The notes beneath the pieces are model-generated. The model did not search any database and was not told where the DNA came from. It worked only from the letters and a program-made list of their open reading frames with translations. The translations under genes were made by a program, and so were the position numbers. Below, in pieces: positions 43,215-57,254 of a DNA stretch of 64,000 bases. The DNA is from Methanospirillum hungatei JF-1 (GTDB lineage: Archaea > Halobacteriota > Methanomicrobia > Methanomicrobiales > Methanospirillaceae), in contig NC_007796.1 in the NCBI RefSeq assembly GCF_000013445.1, positions 620,001 through 684,000 of the forward strand. Reading direction: 5' to 3'. Each line of letters opens with the position of its first letter. Position 1 is the stretch's first letter.

Positions 43215-43481
43215 AGTACACCTGAGTAAGATATGACTGAATACTATATCACAGAAAAGATATAACTTCCCATTGGTATCTCGGTAAAAAAATCCATCAT
43301 GATCATAATTATTTTTATTTGATTATAATTTCAGATTCTGAAACCATTTACCTGTTGAATTGATAGGTTTGTCATATGTCCTGGTCTATGGGGAGTATTT
43401 TTATATAGTGTTGTTAGGAAGTTTACTGAATAGTTCCGTATGAGATATAAGCACCGGGTGAAATTATGTTATTCATTGTAG

Positions 43482-43609
43482 AGGCTGTTGCATAACTCTC
43501 AATCGATAGTACAATGAGGCAAAGCCCATAAATTTCATTGCCAATTAACGTTCCAACCGAATGGAAATTGTGCTCTTGAGGAAACGACATTTTAGTTGTG
43601 CAACAATCT
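43482..43609 (+). mobile_element. MITE copy A (128 bp)
   Basis: Non-coding 128-bp element with terminal inverted repeats aggctgttgcataac ... gttgtgcaacaatct. The inside is nearly identical to copy C (57089-57216, reversed), with only about four differences by eye. Flanks ttgtag/ctgtat share four of six bases, so the target duplication has decayed. The surrounding 43,215-44,026 has no convincing gene apart from the histone promoter. Confidence 0.8.
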
Positions 43610-43987
43610 CTGTATAGCCAAATTTTTTAGACAAAACTGAGCAAATAATTCGTCTCTCAAAGCATGAAAGATATTGAGGAGGAAACAAAGGGACAGGTCA
43701 GGTACGTAAGTATCTACTAAACATTGGGTTAGTATGATACGCTTGTTTTCTTTGAGACGCCTGATGAAAAAACCGCCATAATTATTGCTCTCAAGCGAAT
43801 GGATAGGAAGGATATCATAACTCTGGTTGCTGTGCCGGGAGATGAAAATCATCCTTCAGGCCCGATTTAATTATCACCATAATAAGCCATGGTAGCTGAT
43901 AATATCTCTTTCGCTAGACCTGATTTATATATCATAGTCCTTTTTCTCTTTTCCTACAGGGATTTTTCTGAATTAATAAGAGATAAT

Positions 43988-46526: not shown

Positions 46527-47084
46527 TCACATCCTATCATCTGCTCCAAACTCCATCTCCTCCGTCATGTTCAGATCACCGAGAGTGTCTGATCCATGAT
46601 TCATCACCTGGCTTCCATCATCACTCTCTGCTCTGGTCAGCAGAATACCGGTCCCGTTTGCATGAATCAGAAACCGTGATGCATTCCCCTGCGAGAGCAT
46701 CGACGAATACGTTCCCTGGCTCATCAGCCCCAGCACAGCGGTCTCATACCTTGTGAGCGTCGTATTTTCTGGTCTGTCAAAGAGACAACCTCTTACTTCA
46801 CCGGTTGTATTCGCTCTTGTCGTGGAATACTCAAAAATTCCCATCGGTCCCTGTGATCTGACCAGGGTATTCGTCCGGACCGTCTCACCGGCAAAGAGAT
46901 CCCTGATAATCATGGCGGCATCACTGGTAGAAAGTCGTTCAGACCATGAGGCTCCCGGCTGCACAACCGATGATGCCACAAATGATGCTCCATTACACGT
47001 GATGGAAGAGGTGACTGAATCAGCACCGATCATTATCGGTATGAAAAGAAGAACGAGGAGGAGTATTCCTGCCCTGTTCACCAT
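46527..47084 (-). CDS. Secreted hypothetical protein
   Basis: 185 aa from ATG 47084 (MVNRAGILLLVLLFIPIMIGADS), where a Sec signal peptide begins directly; an upstream in-frame ATG would put eight charged residues before it. The mature part is Thr/Ser-rich with several N-x-[ST] sites, two Cys and no membrane anchor. No family recognised. Same strand as the split gene at 47190-47752, possibly a pair. Confidence 0.55.
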   Translation of the reverse strand: MVNRAGILLLVLLFIPIMIGADSVTSSITCNGASFVASSVVQPGASWSERLSTSDAAMIIRDLFAGETVRTNTLVRSQGPMGIFEYSTTRANTTGEVRGCLFDRPENTTLTRYETAVLGLMSQGTYSSMLSQGNASRFLIHANGTGILLTRAESDDGSQVMNHGSDTLGDLNMTEEMEFGADDRM

Positions 47085-47189
47085 AGCACCATCTTTTACT
47101 AAAATCACATCCGCTCAGGCAAGTGCCGGGACGGTATCTGCCCAGATCTCAATGGCTGTTAGAACTGTAACAGACTCGTAACTGGTGAC

Positions 47190-47752
47190 CTATACCTTGT
47201 CCCGCTTGAACGTGACGTTGTACAGTTCACCGTTCGCTGCATGACACTTGAGCGTCACACTAAACCCGTCCTCTGAACTGTCATGAGATCCGACATCGCC
47301 CATTGCGGTCTCAAGTGCTTCATCAGCAAGAACATTCGAGACGGTTGTGTCAAACCCGCCTGTTGACGGTGCTCTGATGGCTATCCTGCCTACCTGCTTG
47401 CCGTCGTTATTCTCATACACAATAGAGGCTGTTGCATAACTTCAAACAGTTAGTACAATGAGGGAAAAACCAGATTTTTTCCCAACGATTTAAGTTCCAA
47501 TCGAATGGAAATTGTCCTATTGAGGAAATGACATTTTGGTTATGCAACAGCCTCAATAGTTCCGGAATAGTATTCCGAGCTCTTTGATACCGCCGGAAGA
47601 GTCTCCCCACCAGAGGTGTAGGGAGTGCATCCCCATGGGTTATCTGCAAGGATAGTCCCGATGATGGTGTTTAATTCTGCTTTGCTTGCCAGTGGGGAGG
47701 ATAATTCCCGCACTGAACTTTTCACAACTGATTTTGATACAAAATCTGCCAT
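47190..47752 (-). pseudogene. Hypothetical gene split by MITE copy B
   Basis: The N-terminal part starts at ATG 47752 (MADFVSKSVVKSSVREL...) and reads to YYSGTI at the MITE edge; the C-terminal part resumes at VYENNDGKQVGRIAIRAP and ends at TAG 47190. Removing 47426-47553 plus one copy of the CAATAG duplication joins GGA ACT ATT to GTG TAT GAG in frame, restoring a 142-aa protein. Function unknown; small, no membrane segment. The break is an insertion, not decay: no other stop codons occur. Confidence 0.85.
47426..47553 (+). mobile_element. MITE copy B (128 bp) with target duplication
   Basis: 128 bp, ends aggctgttgcataac and gttatgcaacagcct (perfect 15-bp inverted repeat). CAATAG stands at 47420-47425 and again at 47554-47559, a 6-bp target duplication. 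Internally more diverged from A and C than those two are from each other. Confidence 0.9.
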
Positions 47753-48328
47753 TGTTCGTGTTCTCTCCTGTCACTTTGTGACTCTTACCTGTTGGAAGGG
47801 GATATATGAGAGGCTGAAAAGAGTGGAGAAATGGGGAGTGAATGAATGAGATATTCAGGTTTTACGGGTGATGAAAGTTCCTTATATGAAACATACCGAT
47901 AAGTGGTAGGCTGGTTTAAGATCAGGCTGTCCGTGTGATTGTTGCTGAAAAATAGAGGCTAAATTGGCACTCATCTGTATTTCCTACCGGATATAACCCG
48001 TGAATCAGTTCAAATTGAATACTACCCGAATGTAAATTTTAAATGCAAGTATTGAGGAGGAGATAATTCATATGAAGACAAGGAGCGTGAAAAAAGATCC
48101 CGGCAGAGAGGAACAGACGGTGTTTGCCTGAATCCGGATCTATACTTTCCCAAAAAAGGGAGTTACATCCAGGTTATTCTTCTTGAGGAATATATTACCA
48201 GCAATTCCCTTCATTCATAACTTTACATCAATAACCATTATCCACACCCGGGGCCCATAATTACCGCCACGGAAAATACATTACAAACGAAATATAATCT
48301 ATCATCATTCAATAGATAGGACAAGACC
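47753..48328. other. Intergenic stretch, one short peptide frame
   Basis: No clear gene. A frame at 48072-48131 (19 aa, MKTRSVKKDPGREEQTVFA) is preceded by a strong Shine-Dalgarno (gaggagg, ~48056) and a TATA-like run, and may be a truncated gene start. Nothing else supported. Confidence 0.3.
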
Positions 48329-54510: not shown

Positions 54511-54783
54511 ATGGGTTCAATCAATCAGTATTTTTTCAGTATTCCGGATAATTCATTTTCAATATTCATAGGCTCAAATTCATTTCTCAATAAAATGCTT
54601 GATAATGTAACTCAAAAGTTCCCACACCGGAAGATCCAGTATATTTTTTACCAGAACAATCTGGCAGACTTACATATTTCCACTGAAGAAAAGAGAAGGA
54701 TTGAATTCATAGAGGTGGACAATGCAGTTGATATTTTGGCAATGCTTGAAAGTGATACCGCCAGTAAAATTATCATCGTATGA
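54511..54783 (+). pseudogene. Hypothetical gene likely cut off by IS1182-like insertion
   Basis: 90 codons, MGSINQYFFSIPDNSFSIFIGSNSF ... DTASKIIIV, ending exactly where the IS begins: its stop codon TGA (54781-54783) spans the left IS end. The original protein probably continued. No family recognised, and the sequence right of the IS does not obviously continue it. Confidence 0.4.
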
Positions 54784-56540
54784 GGCTGTTGCACAAACAC
54801 AAAAAAAGCTTAATATAAATTATTAAAGCTTAATTATATATATTATTAAGATCAATATATTATATGTCTCATCGCTATAACATGATTAGAGGATATGGTA
54901 ATGAACAACAATTTTTACTCCCTGTCAATGCGATGGACTGGCTATCTGAAAATGATATTACTTATGGCATATTAGAAATTCTTTCGATTCTCGATATTAG
55001 TCCATTTATTAATAAATATCGTGACGATGGTCGCGGTTCTGCCTTTTTTGATCCTCGTTCAATGCTTGGAATAATAATTTATTCAATGATTCGTGGAGAA
55101 AAATCTAGCAGAAAAATTGAGATGTGCTGCCATTATGATATTGGATATCGGATCGTCGCCAATAATCTTACACCTGACCATACAACGATCTATCGTTTCA
55201 AGAAGAATAATTCAAAAGAAATCAAATCCCTTTTTAAACAATTATCTCAAATTATCGTAGAATCCGGGATAGCAAGAATCGGTGTCCTAGCCCTCGATGG
55301 ATCAAAATTTGGCTGTAATGCCTCTTTATCAGCCAATAAAAAATTAAAATACCTTGAAGCAGAGCTAGGTCGGCTTTTTGATGAATCACAGGAAATTGAT
55401 GAGTTAGAAAACGATGATATAAATATTCAGGATATGGAGATTAACCGACTACCTGAGCATCTTTCAACAAAAGAAAAACGAAAGGAAGTTCTTAATCGGG
55501 CTAAAGAGAAATTAATTGAACGACATGATATCGAATCTAAAAAACAAGAAGAAAAGATTCTGGACCGCGAAAAAGAAGAATTAGAATCGGGTAAAAAGAA
55601 ACGAGGTAGAAAGCCTTTAGAGCCTAAAAAAGAGCCATCTTCAGATTCAAAAGTAAATCTCACTGATCCTGAAAGTCAGATAATGTCAACCACCAATGGC
55701 TGGATTCAAGGGTATAATGGGCAGATTATCGTTTCTGAAAATCAATTTATCCTCGCTGCAATGATATCAGATGAGCAAAACGATAAAAAATTATTAATAC
55801 CTATGCTAAATGAACTCGAAGACCTTTTTACGGGTATTCATCCATCAATTTCGCCTAATATACTACTATCTGATGCAGGTTATTTCTCATACCCGAATTC
55901 TTTAGCAGAATTGGATTATGGCATTCAACTCATCATCCCTCCTTCTAAAGAAAGAAAAATTCCAGAATATTCAGATAATGATGGGTATATCTCACGAATG
56001 GAAATGATATGTCGGGCGATTTGTATGGGAGAAATAATCACATTTCCGGAATTGCAAAGTATCGGGACGTTTGTTTGGCAATCTTTTATGAACAGAGAGA
56101 AACAAGCAACAACTCAGGAAATTTGTAAACGAGTTATGGAAGTACGTGTGAAATCCCCCACTGGTAGAGAGTTATATCGAAAACGAAAATACATGGTCGA
56201 ACCAGTTTTTGGTAATATGAAACATAATATGAGGTTTAGGAGTTTCTCTCAAAAAGGGAAAGAGAATTGCGAGGGAGAATTCTTTTTAGCTGCATTAGTG
56301 CATAATATAAAAAAACTTATCAGATTTGAGGGTATAGTTAAAATTAAAGAATTTGCTACGAATATTATAAAACCGTCAAGAGGTTCAGGTTTTTCCTATA
56401 TTTTTGCAAACACAGTATGTAAAGTGGGAATTGATACATGCAGGTTCATACATCAATTAGTCTATTTTGGTTGATAGCTTAAGGGGTAGAGATCGATCAT
56501 TTGTGATCCTGCATGATATTGATCATTGGTGCAACACCCT
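54783..56540 (+). mobile_element. IS1182-like insertion sequence
   Basis: About 1758 bp. The left end (aggctgttgcac) and right end (gtgcaacaccct) form an inverted repeat with one mismatch over 12 bp. Transposase is 81 bp from the left end and 66 bp from the right. No clear target duplication is seen (cgtatg versus ctgaag). The ends match the MITE tips, so this element is a good candidate for their autonomous parent. Confidence 0.8.
54864..56474 (+). CDS. IS1182-family transposase
   Basis: 536 aa. MSHRYNMIRGYGNEQQFLLPVNAMDWL at the N-terminus, RSMLGIIIYSMIRGEKSSRKIE, VLALDGSKFGCNASL (first Asp, ~res 148), LLSDAGYFSYP (second Asp, ~335), and VEPVFGNMKHNMRFRSFSQKG (catalytic Glu, ~445) give the DDE core. 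A long charged coiled insertion (KEKLIERHDIESKKQEEK) lies between. Frame intact, so likely able to act. Confidence 0.9.
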   Translation: MSHRYNMIRGYGNEQQFLLPVNAMDWLSENDITYGILEILSILDISPFINKYRDDGRGSAFFDPRSMLGIIIYSMIRGEKSSRKIEMCCHYDIGYRIVANNLTPDHTTIYRFKKNNSKEIKSLFKQLSQIIVESGIARIGVLALDGSKFGCNASLSANKKLKYLEAELGRLFDESQEIDELENDDINIQDMEINRLPEHLSTKEKRKEVLNRAKEKLIERHDIESKKQEEKILDREKEELESGKKKRGRKPLEPKKEPSSDSKVNLTDPESQIMSTTNGWIQGYNGQIIVSENQFILAAMISDEQNDKKLLIPMLNELEDLFTGIHPSISPNILLSDAGYFSYPNSLAELDYGIQLIIPPSKERKIPEYSDNDGYISRMEMICRAICMGEIITFPELQSIGTFVWQSFMNREKQATTQEICKRVMEVRVKSPTGRELYRKRKYMVEPVFGNMKHNMRFRSFSQKGKENCEGEFFLAALVHNIKKLIRFEGIVKIKEFATNIIKPSRGSGFSYIFANTVCKVGIDTCRFIHQLVYFG

Positions 56541-56582
56541 CTGAAGGCTGCTTCGTTATAGGCACGTATATTATAGGCGTTG

Positions 56583-57014: not shown

Positions 57015-57088
57015 TCATGAAACAAAATTAAGGGATTAATCCATTTTATTCAACAAAACATTCACAAATTGTTTAAACATTACCATAG

Positions 57089-57216
57089 AGGTTGTTGCAC
57101 AACTAAAATGTCGTTTCCTCAAGAGCACAATTTCCATTCGGTTGGAACGTTAATTGGCAATGAAATTTATGGGCTTTGCCTCATTGTACTATTGGTTTAG
57201 AGTTATGCAACAGCCT
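57089..57216 (-). mobile_element. MITE copy C (128 bp, reversed relative to A)
   Basis: 128 bp with ends aggttgttgcacaac and gttatgcaacagcct. Its reverse complement matches copy A at about 124 of 128 positions by eye. Flanks ccatag and ctagat do not form an exact duplication. It lies 38 bp from the tRNA-Leu gene. Confidence 0.85.
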
Positions 57217-57254
57217 CTAGATTCTGACGAGAAAAGAATTTTTTAAAATTTAAT

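Follow-up and report, generated by a model that had tools for sequence, protein, structure and literature searches.

The 130-bp element at positions 47425–47554 of the window (the whole stretch of 64,000 nucleotides that was analyzed) is a non-coding MITE inserted in a gene on the minus strand. The locus is, with high confidence, best explained by the insertion of a MITE, probably by an IS1182-type transposase acting in trans, into one of several copies of a Methanomicrobiales gene; the insertion left a 4-bp target-site duplication (TSD), AATA, and the same copy also carries a TAG at codon 143. The gene thus bears two independent lesions, the MITE and the TAG, and the locus is a decaying copy or pseudogene, the function of which has presumably been lost, and not a clean one-hit interruption.

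The MITE and its copies

The ends of the element are perfect terminal inverted repeats of 16 bp (GAGGCTGTTGCATAAC), with 16/16 bp identical. Its length lies within the size range of MITEs (50–500 bp), it contains neither a transposase gene nor any other gene, and its hairpin is strong (z = -7.1). A search of the genome (3,544,738 bp, one contig) for other copies and duplications, as proposed in the preliminary description, gave 20 related matches with identities of 70–100%, comprising at least three sequence subfamilies; the best six, including the copy at 47425–47554, were 92–100% identical. Short and geneless, with inverted ends and with many copies at unrelated sites accompanied by target duplications, the element has the defining features of a MITE.

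Two further copies are present in the window, one of the same superfamily but another subfamily (43481–43610, plus strand, TSD TGTA) and one detected as a genome match (57088–57217, minus strand). Relatives of the MITE were also found in three other Methanospirillum genomes. One copy in genome G005 occupies the same site, with the same TSD, as a JF-1 copy, in surroundings that are 96% identical, indicating that some of the MITE insertions are not private to the JF-1 genome.

The length of the duplication was derived from the sister copies. An exact 4-bp TSD was present in 9/19 full copies, while exact flanking repeats of 3, 5 or 6 bp were present in none of the 19. When the right flanks were shuffled (10,000 trials), a 4-bp match was obtained in a mean of 1.4 and a maximum of 7 copies. 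By this 4-bp rule, the copies of AATA at the interrupted gene are located at 47421–47424 and 47555–47558. The preliminary description had reported CAATAG hexamers on both sides of the element with 128 bp between them, and these are indeed present (47420–47425 and 47554–47559), but the 6-bp duplication and 128-bp element deduced from them have to be corrected to 4 bp and 130 bp. A 6-bp TSD fits 1/19 copies, solely the one at 47425–47554, and only if the element is shortened by one base at each end; it is ruled out by the comparison with all sister copies. The outer C and G of CAATAG represent, on each side, one base of the element and one flanking base that matches by chance. For the M. hungatei family to which this MITE belongs, the TSD length is now set at 4 bp.

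The interrupted gene and its second lesion

According to a multiple alignment with 35 open relatives, the interrupted gene comprises 167 codons without the insert (47115–47752, minus strand), with the ATG at 47752 and the TGA at 47115–47117. In its present state, the truncated 5' reading frame (47540–47752, minus strand) encodes 70 amino acids, 66 of which are native and four of which are derived from the MITE end. Once the MITE is removed together with one copy of the target, the frame continues over the insertion site; the join reads GGA ACT ATT GTG TAT GAG, and 142 codons precede the first stop. To this extent the frame is restored as had been described, but the protein is one of 167 residues and not 142.

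The difference is due to an in-frame TAG at codon 143 (47190–47192, minus strand), which cuts off 24 residues and contradicts the earlier statement that the gene had no other lesion. The open-frame relatives collected, in part by a search without a length filter, are all 167–169 aa long (35/35 distinct sequences), and the position of the TAG is a sense codon in every relative. Nearly all of these 35 sequences end in a conserved tail similar to ETWADTVPALA. In the interrupted gene, FKRDKV is followed by TAG, then by VTSYESVTVLTAIEIWADTVPALA and then by TGA, i.e. the tail is retained behind the TAG, and the 24 codons after it remain readable to the TGA. The earlier reading mistook the TAG for the natural end of the gene; that a frame is open to the next stop codon is no proof that the gene was otherwise intact.

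No pyrrolysyl-tRNA synthetase (PylS) was found above cut-off in the genome, and the TAG should therefore be a real stop. Decoding of the TAG as pyrrolysine was dismissed on this basis, as there were just weak matches in long frames, which are probably other synthetases.

The empty site, paralogues and the two-gene unit

An uninterrupted gene is present at the matching locus of the Methanospirillum genome G001 (L165:8657-9160), which is colinear with positions 47893–46314 of the window, lacks the MITE, and shows 75–77% DNA identity. The two are regarded as the same locus because the protein of the downstream gene is 75% identical to its G001 counterpart, versus at most 48% to any other. The homologues neither start nor end at the MITE border but extend across it without a break, and the earlier view that the MITE splits a once continuous gene is upheld.

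Relatives of the interrupted gene were found in 54/61 related genomes, often in several copies per genome. The JF-1 genome contains five intact 167-codon paralogues and, since these are intact, loss of the broken gene would probably be tolerated through redundancy. A second broken paralogue (L168:6700-7240; genome positions 2161742-2162161) lies near an intact one; it has lost the start codon region and has an in-frame TAG near the N-terminus, without a MITE.

Identity along the interrupted gene was uneven, the first 64 codons (47559–47752) being nearer to the paralogues and the last 25 nearer to the G001 orthologue. This mosaic identity within the 167-codon gene suggests past gene conversion among paralogues, which would blur its history.

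The downstream partner gene (46527–47084, minus strand) is intact and encodes a protein of 185 aa with an N-terminal signal-like segment. In most Methanospirillum copies such a partner adjoins the 167-aa gene, and the pair (46527–47084 and 47115–47752) represents a dispersed two-gene unit in Methanospirillum, with copies at L165–L174. The partner (about 185 aa, predicted to be secreted and beta-rich) diverges much faster than the 167-aa protein. For neither protein was a match found in Pfam, NCBIfam or PDB; in fold searches with the 167-aa model and with the partner, no PDB entry matched at E < 0.001, and TM-scores did not exceed about 0.3. A search of Rfam gave no match. A viral origin of the interrupted gene was rejected, with no relative in viral contigs and one weak match in PHROGs. 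It is tentatively proposed that the 167-aa gene belongs to an unrecognized, order-wide archaeal family which in Methanospirillum is paired with a secreted, beta-rich protein that diverges fast, the pairs forming as many as about 10 dispersed two-gene units per genome, and that the broken locus may be one such unit under turnover.

IS1182-type elements as candidate mobilizer

A full-length IS1182-type element of 1760 bp (IS-A), a candidate source of the transposase, is located in the window at 54782–56541 (plus strand; transposase gene 54864–56474). The genome contains 17 full-length copies of IS-A, with essentially identical transposases, and six intact copies and one damaged copy of another IS1182-type element, IS-B (1742 bp). 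The terminal sequence of both starts with GAGGSTGTTGCA. At the left end of IS-A and at both ends of IS-B, 14/16 terminal bases match the MITE end, and at the right end of IS-A 12/16 match. A 4-bp TSD was found for 16/17 full copies of IS-A and 5/7 copies of IS-B.

Searched with the NCBIfam IS1182 model NF033551, the IS-A transposase of the window gave 251.5 bits (E = 1.7e-74) and that of IS-B 260.8 bits; both scores are below the curated cut-off of 270 bits, and the label "IS1182-type" is therefore used. IS1182 was by far the best model for these transposases, and Pfam DUF772 and DDE_Tnp_1_6 were above cut-off.

Beyond the ends, no clear similarity between the MITE and IS-A or IS-B was detected, and no full-length IS with exactly the MITE ends was found in the genus Methanospirillum. 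Shared ends alone do not prove the mobilizer; with the resemblance of the ends and a TSD of equal length, mobilization of the MITE by an IS1182-type transposase is probable. Mobilization of MITEs in trans by elements related to them is known (PMC10969869), and this family is now tied to IS1182-type elements whose activity appears to be recent.

Among the 17 full copies of IS-A, the one in the window is alone in lacking a 4-bp TSD, suggesting a rearrangement or deletion beside the element. Another IS-A copy (L075, genome positions 302909–306419) is interrupted by an insertion with a transposase-like frame of 590 codons.

Age of the lesions and alternative explanations

The dN/dS values of the broken copy versus intact relatives were 0.08–0.14 and thereby near the values for pairs of intact copies, indicating that for most of its history the gene was under selection. 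At columns that are at least 85% conserved, the broken copy shows four changes, compared with 0–1 in the eight closest relatives, a hint of relaxed selection. The MITE insertion and the TAG are both young relative to the divergence of the paralogues. The description of the insertion as recent is only loosely supported, by the dN/dS of about 0.1, which is as between intact copies.

In the favored explanation, an IS1182-type transposase acting in trans would have moved a non-autonomous MITE of 130 bp into one copy of the 167-codon gene, leaving the AATA duplication, while an independent nonsense mutation would have given rise to the TAG in the same copy. The original proposal, in which a gene of 142 residues and with no further damage was hit once and very recently, with a TSD of 6 bp, is highly improbable: CAATAG on both sides, the frame continuous over the join, and a dN/dS consistent with young decay would agree with it, but the uniform length of the open relatives, the TAG, and the 4-bp TSDs of the sister copies all speak against it. 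The least credible reading is that the split gene works as two polypeptides, or that the amber-ended 142-residue form was functional before the insertion. Long frames are kept in both halves, and the 3' part begins with a GTG; against this, the C-terminus missing after the TAG, which nearly all relatives possess, contains the conserved W159-A-D motif and residues 150–162, which form a confident helix in the structure model of a relative.

Within the favored explanation, it is quite possible, though somewhat short of an even chance, that the amber codon came first and that the MITE entered an already dead gene without cost. The broken paralogue without a MITE demonstrates that decay by point mutation occurs in this family, and the four changes at conserved columns point in the same direction. 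The order of the lesions, however, leaves no trace in one genome, and the reverse order is equally compatible with the data.

Comparison with known systems

In a table published in 2013 (PMC3852290, Table 4), a MITE of M. hungatei is listed with 'ISHmu1' as putative partner, a length of 136 bp, an inverted repeat of 15 bp, a direct repeat of 4 bp, six copies, and the family given as '?'. Compared by its tabulated features, it is likely to be the same as the MITE at 47425–47554: the species and the 4-bp repeat agree, the size and the inverted repeat are similar, and the number of copies equals that of the 92–100% identical matches found here, although the MITE at 47425–47554 measures 130 bp. 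Archaeal MITEs assigned to IS1182 are included in the same table. Those of Methanosarcina acetivorans (ISMac2, IS1182 family) are likewise short and non-coding, and one of the two in the table has direct repeats of 4 bp, but they differ in length (160–169 bp), inverted repeats (25–26 bp) and host (PMC3852290). The IS1182-type elements of the JF-1 genome resemble the MITE in end sequence and TSD length, and differ from it in carrying a transposase gene. The present finding is an ordinary, routine example of a MITE inserted in a redundant gene, one copy of which is decaying, and the value of the case is corrective.
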